This document shows, in pieces, positions 18,662-64,000 of a DNA stretch of 64,000 nucleotides (the stretch's first letter is position 1; every line of letters starts with the position of its first letter). The DNA lies in contig JANQAE010000004.1 of the NCBI GenBank assembly GCA_024707225.1, forward strand, positions 434,001 through 498,000. The letters run 5' to 3'. The notes beneath the pieces were generated by a model. It worked only from the letters and a program-made list of their open reading frames with translations. It did not search any database and was not told the DNA's origin. A program made the translations under genes and the position numbers. This DNA is from Dokdonella sp. Lineage in GTDB: Bacteria > Pseudomonadota > Gammaproteobacteria > Xanthomonadales > Rhodanobacteraceae.

Positions 18662-20071
18662 TCAGCCGTCGTCCCGCGCCTTCGGCACGCCGATCGCGAC
18701 GAACTGCGTGACGTCGCCGCGGCGGACCAGCAGCATCACCGAATCGCCCGGCGCGACGCTCTTGACGGCCGCGTTGAAGTCCGCGGCAGTCTTGATCGGC
18801 GTGCGCCCCACGCGCAGCACGATGTCGCCCGGCGCCAGCTGCGAGGCGCGCGCCGACCCGCCGATGCGCGTGATCACCACGCCCTCGTCCTGCAGATCGA
18901 GCTGGCGGCGCTGCTCGGGCGTGAGGTTCTCGACAGTCAGGCCGAGCGGATTGGACGCGCTGCCGGCCGCGGCGGCGCCGCCGGTGCCGGCCGTCAGCTC
19001 GGCCGGCTGCTCCCCGACCGTGATCGGCACGTTGATCGTCTTGCCGTCGCGGAAGATCGAGAGCTCGGCCTTCGAGCCCGGCTTGGTCATGCCGACCAGC
19101 GGCGGCAGATCGGCCGAGCTGACGACCTCCTGGCCGTTGAAGCCGAGGATCACGTCCTGCAGCTTCACGCCGGCCTTGTCGGCGGCGCCGCCGGCGGTGA
19201 CGTTGTTGACGAGGGCGCCGCCGCTGCGCGGCAGGCCCAGCGCCTTGGCGGTCTCGCGATCGACGTTCTGGATCTGCACGCCGATCATGCCGCGCGAGAC
19301 GCGGCCGCTGGTCTTGAGCTGGTCGACCGTGTTCATCGCCAGATCGATCGGAATCGCGAACGACACGCCCATGTAGCCGCCGGTGTTCGAGAAGATCTGC
19401 GAATTGATGCCGACCACCTGCCCGTCCAGATTGAACAGCGGACCGCCCGAATTGCCGCGATTGATCGGCACGTCGGTCTGGATGAACGGCACGTACTGCT
19501 GGCCGCCGCCGGTATTGCGGCCGATCGCGCTGACGATGCCGGCGGTCACCGAGTGGTCCAGACCGAACGGCGAACCGATCGCGACGACCCACTGGCCCGG
19601 CCGCAGCTTGCTCGAGTCGCCGAGCGTGACCGACGGCAGGGCCGAGGCCTCGACCTTCAGCAGCGCGATATCGGTCTGCGGATCGGTGCCGACGATCTTG
19701 GCCTCGAGGTCGCGGCGGTCCGACAGGCGCACGCGCACTTCGTCGGCGCCCTCGACGACGTGGTTGTTGGTCAGCACGTAGCCATCGGCGGAGATGATGA
19801 AACCCGAGCCCAGCGAGCGACGCGGCCCCTGGGCGCGCGGCATCGCGCCGCCCGGGCCGCCCGGGCCGAAGAAGCGCCGGAAGATCTCGGGCACCTGCTG
19901 ATCGTCGTCCTGCATCGAGGTATCGACGCTGCCGGTCGCCTCGACGTTGACGACCGCGCCGCCGTAGCGATCGACCAGATCGGTGAAGTCGGGCAGGTTG
20001 GCCGCCTGCGCGGCTGCGACGGCGAGGCCGACGAACGGGACCAGCAACCAACGCGTGAGGGATGGGGTCAT
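18662..20071 (-). CDS. mucD: Periplasmic serine protease/chaperone of the DegP/MucD family
   Basis: This 469-residue protein has a signal peptide (about 1-23). The trypsin-like domain has triad His104 (TNNHVV), Asp134 (QTDIALLKV) and Ser208 (RGNSGGPLF). Two PDZ domains follow, marked by GMIGVQIQNVDRETA and by GDIVLRVGRTPIKTAADF. HtrA proteases degrade misfolded periplasmic proteins. The position after rpoE-rseA-rseB matches mucD of the algU-mucABCD cluster. A sigma-E-type promoter lies 45 bp upstream, so it is probably induced by envelope stress even when the rpoE operon promoter is weak. Confidence 0.95.
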   Translation of the reverse strand: MTPSLTRWLLVPFVGLAVAAAQAANLPDFTDLVDRYGGAVVNVEATGSVDTSMQDDDQQVPEIFRRFFGPGGPGGAMPRAQGPRRSLGSGFIISADGYVLTNNHVVEGADEVRVRLSDRRDLEAKIVGTDPQTDIALLKVEASALPSVTLGDSSKLRPGQWVVAIGSPFGLDHSVTAGIVSAIGRNTGGGQQYVPFIQTDVPINRGNSGGPLFNLDGQVVGINSQIFSNTGGYMGVSFAIPIDLAMNTVDQLKTSGRVSRGMIGVQIQNVDRETAKALGLPRSGGALVNNVTAGGAADKAGVKLQDVILGFNGQEVVSSADLPPLVGMTKPGSKAELSIFRDGKTINVPITVGEQPAELTAGTGGAAAAGSASNPLGLTVENLTPEQRRQLDLQDEGVVITRIGGSARASQLAPGDIVLRVGRTPIKTAADFNAAVKSVAPGDSVMLLVRRGDVTQFVAIGVPKARDDG

Positions 20072-20115
20072 GGCTATACCTGTGAGGGAGTTTGTTGCAG
20101 GTGTTCGGGAACCGC

Positions 20116-20143
20116 TTGGATGAGGCCGCCGACGCAAAGTTCC
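20116..20143 (-). promoter_or_regulatory. Sigma-E-type promoter for mucD
   Basis: On the minus strand GGAACTT (20137-20143) is followed by a 16-bp spacer and TCCAA (20116-20120). This fits the sigma-E/AlgU consensus (GAACTT, 16-17 bp, TCnnA). The expected transcript start near 20109 leaves a leader of about 40 nt before the mucD ATG. The site lies in the only sizeable gap of the rpoE-rseA-rseB-mucD run. Confidence 0.72.
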
Positions 20144-20183
20144 AGTGGCGCAGATCGCGCTCCGGACGATTTTCAGCGGCGCT

Positions 20184-21158
20184 TCATCGAGGCGACGCCA
20201 CCGAGCCGACCGACAGCGCGATCTTTTCGATCGTTTCCTTCGGTGCGTTGCCGAGCGCGGTGATGCGCCAAGGATCGACGATGCGCGTATAGACGCTGAG
20301 CACGCCGCGCGACATCGCCACATCGGTTTCCGGCGAATCGCCGCTGCGCCGCTCGACGTAGACCGATACGCTGACCAGGCCGTCGGAGATCACCAGATGC
20401 TCGGCATCGGGACCGCCGTCGGCAGGCCGGCGGCGGCCGCTCAGCGTGAAGCCGGCCGGCAGCTCGCCGAGCTGCCAGCGTCCGCCGTCGCGCAGTAGCG
20501 GCTCCTCGGCCGGCGTCGTCGCCTGATCGATCGGCCGGCTCGGCAGCAGATCGGCCGCGCTCGGCGCGCCCAGCGTCAGGTTGACGAACATGAACTGCTC
20601 GAGCAGGCGCTGGTCGCTGCCGATCATCGCCGCGCGCAGCAGCGCATGGGAATCGCGCTCGATCCACAGCCGGTAGCCGTAACGATAGGCGTCGCGCGGC
20701 ACGATCTCGACGATGCGCGCCTCGTAGCCGGCGACGCGGTCGGTCCCGGCGAGCCGGGTCGAATAGGAAAGACGATAGCGCTCGTCGCCGGTATCGGGCA
20801 GCAGCGGCAGCAGCTGCTGGCGCGCCGACGGAAACACCGTCGGCACGCGCGTGCCCTGGATGCAGGTCACCGTGTTGCCGGCGCGGATGATCTCGTTGCG
20901 CGGACCGGACAGACTGACCAGCCGCTCGCGCTCGTTCTCGCCGCCCATATGGAACAGCCGCAGCGAATCGATGCGGCTGCCGTGCTGATAGATCAGCGCG
21001 CCGTGGTAGTCCAGATCGCGCATCGCCGCATTCATGCGGCTCAGCAGCTCGGGCGCTTCCACGTCCTGCGCCGACGCCAGCGTCGCGGCGATCGACCAGA
21101 CGATCAGACCGGCCGTCCAGGCCCGCCGCAGCCCGTCCCTGAACGTCATCGTCTGCAC
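20184..21158 (-). CDS. rseB: Sigma-E regulatory protein RseB (MucB)
   Basis: This 324-residue periplasmic protein has a signal peptide ending near ATLASA. The lipoprotein-receptor-like large domain contains LLSRMNAAMRDLDYHGALIYQHG and RYSYGYRLWIERD-like (here YRYGYRLWIERDSHALL). The C-terminal domain ends in VYTRIVDPWRITALGNAP. RseB binds the periplasmic part of RseA and shields it from DegS cleavage until mislocalised outer-membrane components titrate it away. It lies 31 bp after rseA in the same operon. Confidence 0.93.
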   Translation of the reverse strand: MQTMTFRDGLRRAWTAGLIVWSIAATLASAQDVEAPELLSRMNAAMRDLDYHGALIYQHGSRIDSLRLFHMGGENERERLVSLSGPRNEIIRAGNTVTCIQGTRVPTVFPSARQQLLPLLPDTGDERYRLSYSTRLAGTDRVAGYEARIVEIVPRDAYRYGYRLWIERDSHALLRAAMIGSDQRLLEQFMFVNLTLGAPSAADLLPSRPIDQATTPAEEPLLRDGGRWQLGELPAGFTLSGRRRPADGGPDAEHLVISDGLVSVSVYVERRSGDSPETDVAMSRGVLSVYTRIVDPWRITALGNAPKETIEKIALSVGSVASPR

Positions 21159-21189
21159 ACCGGAAGGCGCAACGGGTGCGGCGCCCGGA

Positions 21190-21849
21190 TCAGCGCTTGG
21201 GCGCGTCGGCCGGCGCCGACGACTGCGTCGGCGTCGACAGCAGCACGTACGGCACCACGGCCGACTGGCCGGCCGCGCCGACGGCCTGGTAGTGGCGGAT
21301 CAGATAGGACTGCAGACGCGGATCGAGCGCGGCAGCCGGCTGCGCCCAGTCGGTATCGCCGATCGTCGCCGAAGCCGGCTGGACCGGAACCACGAGCGGA
21401 CCCGGCAGGGCCCGCACCTCCTGCGGCAGCGTCGACACCGACGCCGGCGCCGCCGCGACCGGTGCGCCGCCACTGCGCGCCGCTGCGATGCGCGGCTGCG
21501 ACACCGGTGCGGTATCGGCGGTGTCGACGCCCGGCGGCGTCAGCACCAGGGCGGCGACCGCGACCGATGCGGCGACCGCACCGCCCGATGCCCAGCGCAC
21601 CCAGGTCGCGCCGCGCCGGGCCGGATGGACGTGCTCGGCCTCGATGCGCGCGAACAGGCCGGCCGCGAAATCGGGCCGCAGCGCGTGGACGTCCTGCCGG
21701 CGCAGCACCTGGCGGGCCACGTGATAACGGGCCCAGACGGTGCCGAGCTCGGCGTCGCGCTCCAGCCGCTTCAGCAGGAAACGGCTCTCGTCACGCCGAA
21801 GCTCGCCGTCCATCAGGGCGGAAAGGTGCTCGCGGTATTCGTGGCTCAT
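21190..21849 (-). CDS. rseA: Anti-sigma-E factor RseA (MucA)
   Basis: This 219-residue single-pass membrane protein has the cytoplasmic anti-sigma domain MSHEYREHLSALMDGELRRDE followed by LERDAELGTVWARYHVARQVLR. The membrane helix is at about residues 90-110 (WASGGAVAASVAVAALVL). The periplasmic tail is Ala/Pro-rich with a final KR. It sequesters RpoE at the membrane until regulated proteolysis. It starts 7 bp after rpoE, the normal arrangement. It is longer and less conserved in the tail than E. coli RseA (216), which is usual. Confidence 0.92.
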   Translation of the reverse strand: MSHEYREHLSALMDGELRRDESRFLLKRLERDAELGTVWARYHVARQVLRRQDVHALRPDFAAGLFARIEAEHVHPARRGATWVRWASGGAVAASVAVAALVLTPPGVDTADTAPVSQPRIAAARSGGAPVAAAPASVSTLPQEVRALPGPLVVPVQPASATIGDTDWAQPAAALDPRLQSYLIRHYQAVGAAGQSAVVPYVLLSTPTQSSAPADAPKR

Positions 21850-21856
21850 GGCTAGG

Positions 21857-22444
21857 TCAACCTTCCTCGTCCGACAGCAGCGGACGCAGTTTCTCGTCGA
21901 TGGCTTCGCGCGCCCGGAAAATGCGCGAACGCACGGTGCCGATCGGACAGTTCATCGATTCGGCGATCTCCTCGTAACTGAGTCCGTCGACCTCCCGCAG
22001 GGTGATCGCGGTCCGCAGTTCTTCCGGCAGGCTTTCGACCGTCTGGAACACGGTTCGTTCAATTTCCTGGCGCATCAGTTCGCGGTCGGGCGTGGCGGTC
22101 TCCTTGAGACGCAGCGCCCCCTCGAACTGAACGGCATCCTCGACCGCGACGTCATCGGTCGGTGGACGCCGGCCCTGCGACACCAGCCAGTTCTTCGCCG
22201 TATTGATCGCGATCTTGTACATCCAGGTATAGAACTGACTGTCGCCTCGAAACGCGCCGATCGCCCGGTACGCGCGCAGGAAGGCCTCCTGCGCGACGTC
22301 CTGGGCTTCGCTCCAGTCCGACACGTAGCGCGAAACGACGCCGACGATCTTGTGCTGGTACTTGCGCACCAGCAGATCGAACGCGCGCTTGTCTCCGTGC
22401 TGGACGCGCTGCACCAGCGCCTGATCCAACTCAGTTTCGCCCAT
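21857..22444 (-). CDS. rpoE: RNA polymerase sigma factor RpoE (AlgU family, envelope stress)
   Basis: This 195-residue ECF sigma factor has region 2 (LVRKYQHKIVGVVSRYVSDWSEAQDVAQEAFLRAYRA, positions about 24-65) and region 4 (SLPEELRTAITLREVDGLSYEEIAESMNCPIGTVRSRI). The extra linker residues are typical of RpoE/AlgU. A ribosome site gggaga precedes the ATG by about nine bases. A matching sigma-E promoter lies 58 bp upstream, implying positive autoregulation. Its own anti-sigma genes follow. Confidence 0.96.
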   Translation of the reverse strand: MGETELDQALVQRVQHGDKRAFDLLVRKYQHKIVGVVSRYVSDWSEAQDVAQEAFLRAYRAIGAFRGDSQFYTWMYKIAINTAKNWLVSQGRRPPTDDVAVEDAVQFEGALRLKETATPDRELMRQEIERTVFQTVESLPEELRTAITLREVDGLSYEEIAESMNCPIGTVRSRIFRAREAIDEKLRPLLSDEEG

Positions 22445-36554: not shown

Positions 36555-39295
36555 TCAGTGCGCCTCGTCCCAGTTGGCGCCGCTGCCGACGTCGACGACC
36601 AGCGGCACGTCGAGCACGGCGGCTGCGGCCATGCGGCTGCGCACGCCGTCGGCGATCTCCTCGACCGCGTCGGCGCGGACCTCGAAGACCAGCTCGTCGT
36701 GCACCTGCATCAGCATGCGCGCGCGATCGTCCTGGCCGATCAGCCAGGCGTCGACCGCGATCATCGCGCGCTTGATGATGTCGGCCGCGGTACCCTGCAT
36801 CGGCGCATTGATCGCGGCGCGCTCGGCGCCGGCGCGCTGCGCCTGATTGCGCGCATTGATGAAGTCCAGATACAGGCGGCGTCCGAACACGGTCTCGACG
36901 TAGCCGTCACGGTGCGCTTGCTCGCGCACGCGGTCCATGAACTCGCGCACGCCCGGATAGCGCTGGAAGTAGCGCGCGATGTAGTCCTGCGCCTCGCCGC
37001 GGCCGATGCCGAGCTGGCGCGCCAGACCGAACGGCCCCATCCCGTACATCAGACCGAAGTTGATCGCCTTGGCCGCGCGGCGCTGGCCCGGGTCGACGTC
37101 GGCGAGCGGCACGGCGAAGACCTCGGCGCGGTCGCGCGGTGGATGTCCTGGTCGCCGTGGAATGCGGCGAGCAGGCCGGCGTCGCCGGACAGGTGGGCCA
37201 TGATGCGCAGCTCGATCTGCGAATAGTCCGCCGCGACGATCCGCCAGCCCTCCGGCGCGACGAAGGCCTGGCGGATGCGCCGGCCTTCCTCGGTACGCAC
37301 CGGGATGTTCTGCAGGTTCGGATCGGCCGAGGACAGCCGCCCGGTCGCCGCGGTGGCCTGGTGGTAGCTGGTGTGCACGCGGCCGGTGCGCGGGTTGACG
37401 ATCTCGGCGAGCTTCTCGGTGTAGGTCGAGCGCAGCTTGGCCAGGCCGCGGTATTCCAGGATCAGGCGCGGCAACGCATGCTCGTGCGCGATCGCCTCGA
37501 GCGCTTCCTCGTTCGTCGACGGCTGCCCGGTCGGCGTCTTGAGCACCGCCGCGAGCTTGAGCTCGTCGAACAGCACAGCCTGCAGCTGCTTGGGCGAGTC
37601 CAGGCTGAAGACGTGTCCGGCCAGATCGTGCGCCTGCCCGGTCAGCTCCTGCATGCGGCGCGCAAGCTGCTGGCTCTGCAGCCGCAGCGCCGGCACGTCG
37701 ACCAGCACGCCGCGCTGCTCCATGCGCGCCAGCACCGGCACCAGCGGCATCTCGATGTCGCGATAGATCGCCTCGAGCCTGGCGTCGGCGGCCAGGCGCG
37801 GCCGCAGCGCCTCGTGCAGGCGCAGGGTCACGTCGGCATCCTCGGCCGCGTAGCGCGTCGCGCCGTCGAGGTCGACCTGCGAGAACGGAATCTGCTTGGC
37901 GCCCTTGCCGCAGACGTCCTCGTAGTGGATCGTCGTGTAGCCCAGGTGGCGCTTGGCCAGCGTGTCCATGTCGTGGCGCGAGGCGGTCGAGTTCAGCACG
38001 TAGGACTCGAGCATGGTGTCCTCGGTCACGCCGCGCACGGCGATGCCGGCGCCGGCCAGCACGTTGATGTCGTACTTGGCGTGCTGGCCGAGCTTGGGCT
38101 TGTCCGGATCCTCCAGTAGCGGCTTGAGCGCCGCCAGCACCGCCGTGCGGTCGAGCTGGACCGGCGCGCCCGGATAGTCGTGCCCGAGCGGCACATAGGC
38201 GGCGCGGCCGGACTCGACCGCGAAGGACAGCCCGACGATCTCGGCGCGCATCGGATCGATCGAGGTGGTCTCGGTGTCGAACGCGATCAGCGGCGCCGCG
38301 CGCAGCTGCTGCAGCCAGTGTTCGAAACGCGCCGGCTCGAGCACCAGCTCGTAGTCGCCCGGCACCGCGGCGCCCTCGGCGATGACCGGCTGCGTCGGCA
38401 CCGGCAGCAGTCCCGAGACGGCGGACGCGGCATCGGCGCCGGACGCCGCATCGAGCTCCTTGAGCGCGGCGTTGAACTCGTAGCGCCGGTACAGCACGCG
38501 CAGCGCGTCGACGTCGCGATCGCGCAGCAGCAGCGAGTCGGGGCCCTGATCGAGCGCGACGTCGGTCTTGATCGTGACCAGCTCGCGCGACAGCGGCAGC
38601 TGCGCCAGCGCCTTGCGCAGGTTCTCGCCGATCTTGCCGCCGACCTCGGCGGCGCGGCCGATCACGCCGTCGAGCGAGCCGTATTCGGTCAGCCAGCGCG
38701 CGGCGGTCTTGGGCCCGCATTTCTCGACGCCGGGCACGTTGTCGATCGCATCGCCGGTCAGCGCGAGGAAGTCGACGATGCGCTCGGGCGGCACGCCGAA
38801 CTTGGCGAGCACGCCGTCCACGTCGGTCACGGTATTGGTCATCGTGTTGACCAGGCGCACGTGCGGCGAGACCAGCTGCGCGAAATCCTTGTCGCCGGTG
38901 GAGATCGTCACGTCGATGCCGAGCCGCTCGGCCTGCACGGCCAGCGTGCCGATCACGTCGTCGGCCTCGACGCCGGGCACGCACAGGATCGGAAAACCGA
39001 GCGCGCCGACGATCTCGAACATCGGCTGCACCTGCGCGAGCAGGTCCGGCGGCGTCGGCGCGCGGTTGGCCTTGTAGGCCGGATACAGCGCATCGCGAAA
39101 CGTCGGACCGGGCGCGTCACCGACGAAGGCCGCGTACTCGGGCCGCTCCTTGAGCGTGGAGCGCAGCATGTTGACGACGCCGAACAACGCGCCGGTCGGC
39201 TCGCCGGCCGCATTCGTCAGCGGCGGCAGCGCGTGGAACGCGCGGAACAGATACGACGAGCCGTCGATCAGGACGAGACGCGGTCGGGTCGACAT
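36555..39295 (-). CDS. polA: DNA polymerase I (frameshifted in this sequence)
   Basis: The start [21 protein letters not shown] opens the 5'-3' exonuclease domain (about 1-290; includes [11 protein letters not shown] and GDKDFAQLV). The 3'-5' exonuclease keeps its metal ligands (IAFDTETTS). The polymerase domain has motif A ([19 protein letters not shown]), motif B ([12 protein letters not shown]) and motif C ([11 protein letters not shown]). The frame is lost by minus one at about 37126-37130, after DIHRATA and before [10 protein letters not shown]. Full length is about 913 residues, as in other gammaproteobacteria. An active polA is essential or nearly so, so a sequence error is likely. It is divergent from the S9 peptidase. 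Confidence 0.93.
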
Positions 39296-60462: not shown

Positions 60463-62181
60463 TCAGCGCTGCACCGCGAACTCGGGCGCGGTCGCGATCA
60501 GGTAGATCGCATTCTGGACGCGCTTCAAGGTGTCGGCGGCCGGGATCGCGCGCAGGCGCGTCAGGATCCGCTCGCGCAGCGGCGCGGACATCGTGCCGCC
60601 GAGCAGCAGCTCGTCGAACTGCCCGACCAGCTGCTCGAGCGCGCCGGCCGGTGCCTGCGTGCCGCCGGGCGGGGGCGCGATCGACCGCTCCCAGCGATCG
60701 AGCTGGATCAGCCGTGCGCGATCGTCGAACTCGTCCATCGGGCCGCCGCGGTACGCCCAGAAGATCCGGCCGCCCAGATCGTTGGTCACCGCGATCGCGA
60801 AGTTGGCGGTGATGATCTGCATCTCCGGCGCGACCAGACCGGCGTTGGCGAGCGGGCCCGGCGGCGCGTGGCCCGGCGAGAAGAAATTGAAAACCGACGG
60901 CGAGAACAGCGGCGACTGGTTGTAGCGCAGATGGATGTCCAGATCGTCGAGCATCAGTTCGTCGGCTTCCCACATCACGTCGAACGCGTGCCACATCTGG
61001 CTCAGGCGCAGCAGCGGTTCGCGCAGCTTGCCGAAGGTCTGCGGCGCCAGCCGATGGCCCTGACGTGCCTCCACGTCGAGCAGGATCGCGCGCACGACGG
61101 CGCCCAGGTGGCCGCGCACGCCGTGGCCGTCGTCGGCGAACACCGCGGCGACGCGGCCGACGTAGGCCGGTGACGGATTGCTGGTGACCAGACGCTGGAT
61201 CAGCTGGCGCGCGATGAACGGACCGACATTCGGATGGTTCGCCAGCGCGTCGAGCGCCGCTTCGAGCTCGCTGCGCGCATCACGGCCGGCCGGCAGCACG
61301 AGGCCGTCGAACAGGCGCTTCTCGTCGCGGTCGTGATAGGCCTCGTACGGCACCATCGCGTGTTCGGTGCTGCAGGTGAAGTTCTCCTGCACGAACGGAT
61401 CGGGCGGACAGTTCTGACCGGCCGCGCAGTGGCAGGCCCAGCCGGTGAACACGCGCGCCATCGCGCGCACGACCGCGACGTCGTAGGTCGGCACGGTCTG
61501 CCCGCCGACCAGCAGCGGCGAGCCGTCGGGGTTGAGCCGGATCAGGCCGATCGAGAACAGCTGCATGACTTCGCGCGCGAAATTCTCGTCGGCCTGGATG
61601 TTGTTGGCCGGATCGGGCTTGCGGTTGCGGTACATGCTCAGATAGCGGCCCATCGCCGGGCTCAGCGTGACGTCCTCGAGCAGCTGGCGATAGCTGCCGA
61701 ACGCATTGCGCAGCAGGATGTCGTGATAGGCGCCGAGTACGAGGCCGTCGTTGCCGAGGCCGGCGCCGCGTTCGGAGACGACGAAGATCTCGCTCAGCGC
61801 AAAGGCGACGCGCTGGCGCAGATCGTCCGGCGCCGACAGCACGCGGACGAACCAGGCCTGTCGATACAGATGGAACGGCAGCGGCTGCAGCGGATCGGCG
61901 GTGCCGGCGGCCTGGCGCATGTACGGCAGCACGTAGCCGGGCGCCTGCGCGAACTGCGTGTCGAACCAGGCATTGAATCCGCTCACCATCAAGGCGTCCA
62001 CCTGTGCGGGCGTACCGCCGAAGCTGGCCTGGGCGAGGAACCGCGCCGCATCGGCGCGGCCGGTCGGCAGATCGCCGGGCGGATCGAAACCGTCACCGAA
62101 GACGCGGTCGGCCGTGCCGGCACGCAGCGGGCTTGCCGCCAGCCATACGATCGCGATCGCGACGCCCAGCCATCGCTTCAT
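60463..62181 (-). CDS. DUF1800 secreted protein
   Basis: This 572-residue protein has a signal peptide (MKRWLGVAIAIVWLAASPLRA). The DUF1800 core runs from ARFLAQASFGGTPAQVDALM through DDLRQRVAFALSEIFVVS, NNIQADENFAREVMQLFSIG and VFTGWACHC to NHPNVGPFIARQLIQRLVTSNPSPAYV. The C-terminal FNFFSPGHAPPGPLANAGLVAPEMQI is also typical. The start at 62181 was chosen for its signal sequence over an open extension upstream. It is co-directional with the DUF1501 gene 70 bp downstream. Function is unknown; both products should leave the cytoplasm. Confidence 0.9.
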   Translation of the reverse strand: MKRWLGVAIAIVWLAASPLRAGTADRVFGDGFDPPGDLPTGRADAARFLAQASFGGTPAQVDALMVSGFNAWFDTQFAQAPGYVLPYMRQAAGTADPLQPLPFHLYRQAWFVRVLSAPDDLRQRVAFALSEIFVVSERGAGLGNDGLVLGAYHDILLRNAFGSYRQLLEDVTLSPAMGRYLSMYRNRKPDPANNIQADENFAREVMQLFSIGLIRLNPDGSPLLVGGQTVPTYDVAVVRAMARVFTGWACHCAAGQNCPPDPFVQENFTCSTEHAMVPYEAYHDRDEKRLFDGLVLPAGRDARSELEAALDALANHPNVGPFIARQLIQRLVTSNPSPAYVGRVAAVFADDGHGVRGHLGAVVRAILLDVEARQGHRLAPQTFGKLREPLLRLSQMWHAFDVMWEADELMLDDLDIHLRYNQSPLFSPSVFNFFSPGHAPPGPLANAGLVAPEMQIITANFAIAVTNDLGGRIFWAYRGGPMDEFDDRARLIQLDRWERSIAPPPGGTQAPAGALEQLVGQFDELLLGGTMSAPLRERILTRLRAIPAADTLKRVQNAIYLIATAPEFAVQR

Positions 62182-62618
62182 GAGACGCCCCCTGCCCTGT
62201 CCTATCGTCCCGTGACGAAACGCGGTGCCGATTCCTATCAGCACCCGAACAACGAACCGTCTGACCACGGCGCTGCCGCGCGCAGCGCGGTGGTCGGAGA
62301 TCTGAAACCCGGAATCGACCTGTCGCGCACGGCAGGTCCTCTGATGGTCGTGCCATGCGTACTCGCACGCCGAGGCGGCTGCGCGCCACATCGCGGCCGA
62401 CGCGCGGCACTCGGTACGGTTGCCGATTCGATTCACCGGCGCGCTCGACGTCGCGACGTGCTGCCGCGCCGCGGCCGCGGCAGAGCTGTCACCTCATCTC
62501 GGGCTCACGGCCGGCGGCGCTTCGAGGTCGGAAGCGCGTGGCTCTCTATTCGAACGGACTGGCCTGCACGCGCCCGGCATGGCGGCCTGGGCAGCCGTCA
62601 TCAAAAATCCGTACGCCG
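62182..62618 (-). other. 437-bp intergenic region upstream of DUF1800
   Basis: No coding frame with recognisable motifs was found between the DUF1800 start and the terminator of the candidate small RNA. A promoter for DUF1800-DUF1501 should lie here, but I could not pick one with confidence. Confidence 0.45.
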
Positions 62619-62659
62619 AAAAATAAAATGCCCCGAGGGCCAGGGGGAGCCCTCGGGGC
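62619..62659 (-). terminator. Strong intrinsic terminator (minus strand)
   Basis: An 11-bp GC-rich perfect stem (62649-62659 with 62630-62640) closes an 8-nt loop. On the minus strand it is followed by ATTTTATTTTT (62619-62629). It is the best terminator in the window. It could end either the candidate small RNA or a transcript continuing 280 bp past the S41 protease gene. Confidence 0.85.
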
Positions 62660-62747
62660 GGGGGAAGACCGGATTTGGGGAGAATCCGATCTTCACAGGA
62701 TCCACCCAGGGAGGAGGGGATCCGGGGGCGCCGTTGCGTGCACCCGG
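62619..62747 (-). ncRNA. Candidate small RNA with C-rich hairpin loops
   Basis: The minus strand can fold into successive hairpins over about 130 nt. First is a bulged stem from the 5' end (CCGGGTGC pairing with GCGCCCCCGG, within 62716-62747). Next is a GGATCC/GGATCC stem (62718-62723 with 62698-62703; it competes with the first), whose 14-nt loop contains CCTCCTCCC. Third is a 12-bp stem (62683-62694 with 62664-62675, one G-U pair) with loop CTCCCCA. Last is the 11-bp terminator stem with loop TCCCCCTG. The loops are complementary to Shine-Dalgarno sequences. The region lies between an S41 protease and DUF1800 and has no coding frame. The G-U pair on this strand is a C-A mismatch on the other, supporting the minus orientation. 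Confidence 0.62.
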
Positions 62748-62751
62748 TAAC

Positions 62752-62780
62752 TAAGACAGAGGCGGCCGAGGAAAAGTTGC
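62752..62780 (-). promoter_or_regulatory. Weak sigma-E-like promoter before the candidate small RNA
   Basis: On the minus strand GCAACTT (62774-62780), a 17-bp spacer and TCTTA (62752-62756) resemble the sigma-E pattern seen before rpoE and mucD, with one mismatch in each element and a spacer one base longer. A start 6-8 bases downstream would fall at the first hairpin of the small RNA. Position supports it; sequence alone is weak. Confidence 0.35.
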
Positions 62781-62818
62781 GGCGAGCGCCGGAACGGTTT
62801 ATCGAACATTCAGACTAC

Positions 62819-62834
62819 TACGAAAGATTTCGTA
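62819..62834. promoter_or_regulatory. 16-bp palindrome in an AT-rich island, possible operator
   Basis: tacgaaa-ga-tttcgta is a perfect 7-bp inverted repeat with a 2-bp centre. It lies in a locally AT-rich stretch (about 62790-62855) of an otherwise very GC-rich window, between the S41 protease and the small RNA candidate. It could be a dimeric regulator site; no regulator can be named. Confidence 0.35.
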
Positions 62835-62941
62835 AGCACCTGTTTTCAAAAGCCCTGAACCGTGCACGCCGCGCGGCACCGACCCGGCTTCGCCGGAAAA
62901 TCCGGCTCTTATGGCCGTTCCCGACCGCCTGCGAGGAAACC

Positions 62942-64000
62942 TCAGCCGCTCTTCTCGGCCGGTGCCGGGCGGCGCTGCAGCGCCAGGCCCTTGAGCACGT
63001 TCAGCGCCTCGTTGAGCGCGTAGTCGGACTGGACCTCCTCGTCCTGCTCGACCGCCGGCAGGTCGATCGCCTCGTCGACGCCCTGCAGATGGTTGCGCAG
63101 GTCGCGCTCGCTGAGCATCGGCGTCGGCGGCGCGTCGCGACGCGTCAGCGCCAGGTCCGACAGCGCGATGTCCGGCACGATGCCCTGGGCCTGGATCGAG
63201 ACGCCGCTCGGCGTGTAGTAGCGCGCGGTCGTCAGCTTGATCGCATGCTCGGCGTCGAGCGGCAGGATCGTCTGCACGGACCCCTTGCCGAACGTGCGCC
63301 GGCCCATCAGCAGTGCGCGGTGGTTGTCCTTGAGCGCGCCGGCGACGATCTCGGCTGCCGAGGCCGATCCGTTGTCGACCAGCACGACCAGCGGTGCGCC
63401 GCCGAGCTGATCGCCCGGCGTCGCGCTGAACGACAGTTCGGCCTCCTTGATGCGGCCTCGGGTCGTGACCACGACGCCGGCGTCGAGAAAGATGTCACTG
63501 ACGTCGACCGCCGCCGAGACCAGGCCGCCGGGATTGCTGCGCAGGTCGAGTACCGCGCCCTTGAGCGGCGCGCCGTTCTCGGTCTGCAGGCGGGTCAGGC
63601 GCTTGCGCAGGTCGTTGCCGGTCTCGGCCTGGAACTGGCTGATCCGCAGATACGCGTAACCGGGCTCGATCAGGCGACCGCGCACGCTGACGACCCGGAT
63701 GATCTCGCGCTGGAGCGTGACGTCGACCGGCACGCTGTGGCCCTCGTGCAGGATGCTCAGCGTGATCTCGCTGCCGGGCTTGCCGCGCAGGCGGTCGATC
63801 GCGCCGGCCAGGTCGTCCGGCGACAGCGGCTTGCCGTCGATGCGCAGGATCGTGTCGCCGGCCTTGATGCCGGCGCGCTCGGCCGGCGTGTCGTCGATCG
63901 GCGCGATCACGCGCAGTGCGCCGTCCATCGGCACGACCTCGATGCCGAGGCCGGCGTAGCTGCCGGTGGTGTCTTCGTTGAGCTCCTCGATCTGCGCGCC
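62942..64000 (-). CDS. S41 family C-terminal processing protease (CtpA type), 5' end outside window
   Basis: The frame is open to the window edge, so about 352 codons of the C-terminal part are visible and the signal peptide is outside. A PDZ domain comes first (GLGIEVVPMDGALRVIAPID, AGIKAGDTILRIDGKPL). The tail-specific protease domain follows (GYAYLRISQFQAETGNDL, LDLRSNPGGLVSAAVD), with catalytic Ser in DNGSASAAEIVAGAL and Lys in RRTFGKGSVQT. These enzymes degrade or trim periplasmic proteins from their C-termini. The candidate small RNA begins about 195 bp downstream of the stop. Confidence 0.93.
   Translation of the reverse strand, partial: GAQIEELNEDTTGSYAGLGIEVVPMDGALRVIAPIDDTPAERAGIKAGDTILRIDGKPLSPDDLAGAIDRLRGKPGSEITLSILHEGHSVPVDVTLQREIIRVVSVRGRLIEPGYAYLRISQFQAETGNDLRKRLTRLQTENGAPLKGAVLDLRSNPGGLVSAAVDVSDIFLDAGVVVTTRGRIKEAELSFSATPGDQLGGAPLVVLVDNGSASAAEIVAGALKDNHRALLMGRRTFGKGSVQTILPLDAEHAIKLTTARYYTPSGVSIQAQGIVPDIALSDLALTRRDAPPTPMLSERDLRNHLQGVDEAIDLPAVEQDEEVQSDYALNEALNVLKGLALQRRPAPAEKSG

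Follow-up and report, generated by a model that had tools for sequence, protein, structure and literature searches.

The window, that is, the whole 64,000-nucleotide stretch of Dokdonella sp. DNA that was analysed, carries on its minus strand a predicted small RNA (sRNA) of ~122–128 nt, extending from 62746 to ~62619 and built of four hairpins, namely a 5′ hairpin and three whose loops are rich in C. Its 5′ end was placed from the position of the promoter and its 3′ end from the terminator. The gene lies ~195 nt 3′ of the stop codon of an S41 protease gene, on the same strand, and is flanked on the other side by a DUF1800 gene. A complete sigma-E operon (18662–22444, minus strand) is also found in the window, with rpoE, rseA, rseB and a trypsin/PDZ protease gene of the mucD/degP type that has a sigma-E-type box of its own. 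The features relevant to the following are:

62619–62746, minus strand: sX13-family sRNA, predicted transcript (Rfam RF02232 at 62624–62735, 57 bits; model R2, see below, at 62626–62750, 36.7 bits)
62726–62746, minus strand: 5′ hairpin, loop around GCAAC (fold; compensatory changes among relatives; partly beyond the Rfam model)
62698–62723, minus strand: stem-loop 1 (SL1), loop CUCCUCCC (fold; loop-anchored pairing count)
62664–62694, minus strand: stem-loop 2 (SL2), loop CUCCCCA (fold; loop-anchored pairing count)
62630–62659, minus strand: stem-loop 3 (SL3), loop CUCCCCCU, terminator stem of 12 pairs (fold and consensus pairs)
62619–62629, minus strand: T-rich terminator tail ATTTTATTTTT, directly 3′ of SL3
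62752–62756, minus strand: −10 box TCTTA, 17 nt past the −35 box (motif)
62774–62779, minus strand: −35 box CAACTT of a sigma-E-type promoter (motif; conserved in the family)
62798–62812, minus strand: upstream element TGAAT-N6-TAAA (loose form in 21 of 30 loci, counted with no chance control)
36558–37927, minus strand: polA, 3′ part matched; the usual neighbour of sX13 in relatives, ~25 kb away here
21857–22444, minus strand: rpoE, the presumed sigma factor (TIGR02939 over cut-off)
20116–20142, minus strand: GAACTT-N16-TCCAA, the one match to the promoter motif in the window besides that of the sRNA; it lies between rseB and the mucD/degP-like gene

The minus strand of 62800–62600 folds with −87.1 kcal/mol, compared with −67.46 (s.d. 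4.25) in 200 shuffles (z −4.62), and none of the 200 was as stable as the native fold. Together with the finding that R2 matches nowhere else in the window, the shuffle test rules out chance hairpins. The fold places the hairpins and loops where the initial annotation had read them from the letters, including the final hairpin taken as a terminator, which is the 12-pair SL3 followed by the T tail; the three C-rich hairpins thus stand, and the fourth, at the 5′ end, had been missed. In the ensemble fold, loop 3 and the second half of loop 1 are open, and the first letters of loop 1 (CUCCUCCC) are partly paired (unpaired 0.19–0.60); loop 2 is open in the minimum-energy fold. The hairpins are separated by gaps of 2–4 nt, with no U-rich stretch 5′ of the tail. 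The region had also been described as non-coding, and indeed no open frame of at least 60 aa crosses the sRNA on the minus strand; three long plus-strand frames that overlap it look spurious.

The same annotation had called the RNA unannotated while recalling a likeness to sX13 of Xanthomonas, to be checked by covariance search. The search bears out the likeness and, in one sense, withdraws the label: in Rfam 15, sX13 (RF02232) is the sole family to reach its gathering score in the window, with 57 against 50 bits over model positions 1–115. Below their cut-offs, ar14 (35.1 bits), scr5239 (22.7 bits) and anti-hemB (20.8 bits) were the other matches on 62500–62950 at E ≤ 1. Whole-genome searches with the sX13 model and with R2 each returned one copy. 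Judged by these model matches, the RNA is a member of the known sX13 family and not new in kind. Alignment to the Rfam model shows that the published 115-nt form of sX13 starts within the conserved 5′ loop, perhaps through cleavage of this hairpin or through start sites that vary from family to family.

Relatives were examined for conservation. At E ≤ 0.001 the sX13 model matches 35 of the 36 genomes of the window's family, its own included. Only 13 of these 35 exceed the gathering score, so Rfam under-reports the family; in the single genome missed (G003) the unit is nonetheless present at the polA locus (L033). Two matches each at this threshold were seen in G014, G019, G029 and G030. The family of G036, which we take as Xanthomonadaceae, has matches in 75 of 79 genomes. 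A pattern scan of named genomes yielded 113 stretches, of which the 80 listed are mainly from Rhodanobacter, Dyella, Luteibacter, Dokdonella and Frateuria, with some loosely named MAGs; among the matches listed, one in Mycobacterium and one in Streptomyces look like chance. The search pattern contained the 5′ loop and CCTCCCTG, and these letters are therefore partly conserved by construction in the promoter and stem counts on 119 units given below. The fair count of conservation comes from 35 genomes chosen by the Rfam model alone, one place each. Here loop 1 reads CCTCCC in 34, loop 2 TCCCC[AT] in 33 and loop 3 has its C run in 35 (loops 2 and 3 were sought within loose windows), and the 5′ loop GCAAYGG is found in 32. 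L026, L181 and L187 are out of register in this count because the 5′ hairpin lies ahead of the start of the model match; in L017, loops 1 and 2 are altered. L026 and L187 seem to have one C-rich hairpin more.

The stems, by comparison, change with compensation. Among the consensus pairs of 39 family RNAs (set A1), 12 of 23 show double changes. RNAalifold on A1 lost most of stems 1 and 2 since stem lengths vary, and pairs were therefore counted by anchoring on the loops, in 115 of the 119 units (four were dropped by the parser). Counted in this way, 78% of cells are paired in register for stem 1 versus 29–44% when shifted, and 66% versus 31–57% for stem 2. When the 119 relatives are folded one by one, loops 1 and 3 are mostly unpaired in all 119 and loop 2 in 115. 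A lack of conserved loops and stems in relatives had been named first among the grounds for abandoning the sRNA; with the loops nearly invariant and the stems compensating, that ground falls away.

Upstream of the RNA, a sigma-70 pattern scan of 62000–63500 found no promoter. The sigma-E consensus is GAACTT-N16-TCTNA, and the promoter of the family resembles it. What had been noted as a weak sigma-E-like box proves to be the conserved promoter of the family: NAACTT lies upstream in 117 of the 119 units versus 2.4% of 20,820 control stretches from the same loci (in two units a later NAACTT copy was recorded and an earlier GAACTT is present too), and the stricter AACTT-N15-18-TC[TG]NA in 67 of 119 versus 0.014% of controls. 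In the unbiased 35 genomes, the −35 box is present in 31 and both boxes in 30. Going by these motifs, a sigma-E-type promoter is conserved at the sX13 gene of Rhodanobacteraceae. The boxes in the window itself are imperfect (CAACTT, 17-nt spacer, TCTTA). Over the 64 kb, on both strands, the motif, which was composed after the family promoters had been seen, has two matches, one at the sRNA and the other in the gap from rseB to the mucD/degP-like gene. The promoter of rpoE itself, GAAACTT-N16-TCTAG, is a variant that resembles the sRNA promoter and differs in its −35 box. Among rpoE loci of the order, 13 of 30 match the promoter pattern, including 10 of the 20 from the window's family, where eight further loci show GAAACTATT by eye and two nothing clear. 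For Xanthomonadaceae, 21 of 30 loci were readable; they share a different upstream stretch, mostly with a TATA-like −10. Published Xanthomonas expression data may thus not carry over, the promoter type being another one.

The usual place of the gene is behind polA, whose stop lies 91–1228 nt upstream of the sRNA unit in 103 of 114 placed units (five more units had too little flank). Only the promoter therefore upholds the link to envelope stress that the initial annotation had also drawn from the neighbouring S41 protease and DUF1800 genes; this neighbourhood, shared by the window genome and, by eye, one relative (G005), is ruled out as a functional link. In both genomes, polA is 24–25 kb from the sRNA. 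The polA of the window matches two overlapping frames, 37124–37927 and 36558–37130, split by a frame change near 37124–37130. The polA pattern is lacking in 11 units, and for three of them BLAST places polA nearby: at L093 (3511–3628) the sRNA is inverted beside it, and at L166 (3806–3921) and L169 (669–785) it lies 2.2 and 3.5 kb away, respectively. The sRNA gene thus seems prone to moving. Three of the remaining units have less than 1.5 kb of flank. Flanking frames, as read, place sX13 near a groEL-like gene at L013; at L024, which is from another family, a hemF-like gene adjoins it. We infer that polA is the ancestral neighbour and that the gene was relocated in the lineage of the window genome.

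The polA locus opens the view to a wider family. Model R1, built from the 39 RNAs of A1, matched 66 of 121 genomes of the order; its match to the window RNA is by construction, as A1 contains this RNA. Among its 29 matches beyond the two main families, with coordinates compared to polA by hand, 18 are within 300 nt downstream of polA on the polA strand, three are 2–7 kb downstream, two adjoin polA and six are on another contig. The two adjoining matches (G042 C5:72325–72443 and G052 C3:172334–172452) are on the strand opposite to polA. In 143 genomes of the class, one per family, R1 matched five outside the order, all of them 42–156 nt behind polA and preceded by GAACTT or GAACTA, four with GCAAY in the 5′ loop.

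Outside the order, 134 of the class genomes have polA, and for 111 of them the flank downstream of this gene was then read. A strict sigma-E-type promoter lies within 350 nt behind polA in 25 of the 111, versus 2 of 111 on the opposite strand and a mean of 1.3 (maximum 4) in 100 letter shuffles. This promoter-only test was devised after the result for promoter plus GCAAY had been seen, which was 9/114 versus 4/114 on the other strand (three genomes counted twice) and which shows that the 5′ loop is not shared throughout the class. GAACTT or GAACTA alone occurs behind polA in 36/114, versus 12/114 in reverse and 16.2 in shuffles, with the same double count of three genomes. By eye, the hairpins and C-rich loops that follow the promoter are laid out alike in 20 of the 25 promoter-bearing loci. 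From the 25, model R2 was built on 16 polA-linked RNAs outside the window's order, found without R1; four found via R1 were left out, as were five unlike the rest (L301, L328, L337, L370 and L378), four of which R2 later matched. Its pairs, in a structure drawn from its own rows, covary (0.374 versus 0.224 shuffled and ≤0.219 slid), with double changes in 20 of 23.

The window RNA is the sole match of R2 in the 64 kb (36.7 bits, E 2.1e-11, threshold E ≤ 10) and in the genome (E 1.5e-9, threshold E ≤ 1), and by this match falls within the proposed class-wide family of polA-linked C-rich sRNAs. Matches of this kind could be favoured by GC-rich stems with C-rich loops; that there is a single one in a GC-rich genome of 4.4 Mb speaks for specificity. 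R2 also matched 25 of 26 loci that had been picked by hand within the order, L284 weakly and L036 being the one missed, and, at E ≤ 1e-5, the polA loci of 41 of the 111 class genomes, 16 of these being the training set and two on the opposite strand. The anti-hemB model matched all 13 class loci of one set at E ≤ 0.05 and, at E ≤ 0.001, 10 of another 20, exceeding its cut-off directly behind polA in L356 (377–466, minus strand) and L314 (1221–1322, minus strand). The sX13 model reached 34–35 bits in two class loci and the ErsA model 29.5 bits in one; in 20 further polA loci, neither these two nor anti-hemB matched at E ≤ 0.001. Just downstream of polA in L339 (347–431, minus strand) is a c-di-GMP-I riboswitch (77.9 bits).

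Taken together, we consider it quite probable that the locus encodes a trans-acting sRNA of the sX13 family of ~125 nt, transcribed by sigma-E, whose C-rich loops pair with G-rich ribosome sites, and which ancestrally sat behind polA before moving here. Sequence comparison supports family membership, the conserved loops, the compensating stems and the conserved promoter. On the reading we favour, sigma-E polymerase would transcribe the gene under envelope stress, as the promoter motif suggests, giving a free transcript of ~125 nt; its three C-rich loops would pair with G-rich stretches at or near the ribosome-binding sites of several mRNAs and, by analogy with the loop and target mutants of Xanthomonas sX13, mostly block their translation. 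Among the targets of sX13 in Xanthomonas are hfq and pilH.

The likeliest alternative concerns the sigma factor. ECF factors can have −35 boxes in common, and at E ≤ 0.001 the RpoE model matches 16 times in the genome, once over its cut-off, so that the AACTT/TCTNA boxes of the sX13 RNA described above might be read by another ECF factor or an activator in response to a signal other than envelope stress. The upstream element, whose loose form TGAAY-N6-TAAA two of three Xanthomonadaceae have as well, may serve as the site of a regulator and hints the same way. We nevertheless regard this as unlikely, as the window has the motif again at the mucD-like gene and a variant of it at rpoE, and half of the family's rpoE loci match the pattern.

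That the S41 protease mRNA merely ends here, the RNA being its processed 3′ end or its terminator region with no product of its own, might be read from the place of the RNA shortly behind the protease stop on the same strand, but is hardly credible: the unit, with its promoter, sits behind polA in nearly all placed relatives, and is therefore independent, having taken its promoter and terminator along when it moved. The several near-identical loops per RNA, with seemingly one more in L026 and L187, would also suit a sponge that titrates a C-binding protein or bulk G-rich RNAs instead of acting on chosen mRNAs. This is very improbable given that, for Xanthomonas sX13, mutating the G-rich motif of single targets abolished their regulation (PMC3771888).

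For sX13, so far a virulence sRNA of Xanthomonadaceae without a named input, the sigma-E-type promoter in the sister family supplies a candidate signal, envelope stress, which can be tested directly. More widely, sX13 is probably one branch of a class-wide, envelope-stress-linked family of C-rich sRNAs, judging from the models and motifs, with ErsA and anti-hemB likely as its relatives. We give an even chance to the full proposal, namely that a single ancient sRNA gene, born behind polA under sigma-E control, branched into sX13, ErsA and anti-hemB and used its CCUCC and CCCC loops to silence G-rich ribosome sites during envelope stress throughout the GTDB class Gammaproteobacteria, with Xanthomonadaceae later changing the promoter and some Dokdonella moving the gene. 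By this wider link, several sRNAs that go by separate names look like a single conserved arm of the envelope stress response, and members not yet annotated are predicted to lie behind polA in many families. A literature search found no paper pairing sX13 with ErsA or with Rhodanobacter, which is weak evidence of novelty as subscription papers were thinly covered.

How does the window RNA compare with the named families? Likened by model and loops alone, ar14 (RF02344) of Alphaproteobacteria has CCUCCUCCC-type loops in common with it and scores 35.1 bits against a cut-off of 58.8. Anti-hemB (RF02837) of Burkholderia, likened solely because its model fits the polA-linked RNAs of the class, scores 20.8 against 49.5. 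ErsA of Pseudomonas (Pseudomon-1, RF01719) was compared by description and Rfam model. It is described as a 132-nt RNA with three stem-loops, encoded between polA and engB, controlled by the sigma-E-like sigma-22 and acting through a U-rich unstructured domain and Hfq (PMC7565897, PMC8575079). Alike are the sigma-E-type control, which the window sRNA has by motif only, the polA locus and the three stem-loops; the long U-rich unstructured domain between the first two hairpins is missing here, and the ErsA model is absent from the four matches at E ≤ 1 on 62500–62950.

Closest is sX13 itself. It was reported as exclusive to Xanthomonadaceae and always downstream of polA, and as more abundant under high salt, in minimal medium and at 37 °C; it represses mRNAs with G-rich motifs independently of Hfq, needing both its C-rich loops and the G-rich targets, although it activates certain targets, and carrying a G-rich motif is not enough for an mRNA to be one (PMC3771888). 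The window gene departs from that description in its sigma-E-type promoter, where Xanthomonadaceae conserve a TATA-type one, in the 24–25 kb to polA in this genome and one relative (position being part of the description and outside the Rfam definition), and in matching R2, a model built outside the order. Loop 1 reads CUCCUCCC or CCUCCC here and AUCCCC there; with respect to the CCCC/CCCCC loops that mark sX13, loops 2 and 3 carry CCCC and CCCCC, which we count as agreement, and loop 1 carries CUCCUCCC. In common are the full-length model match, the three hairpins with C-rich loops, the terminator and, in relatives, polA as the usual neighbour.
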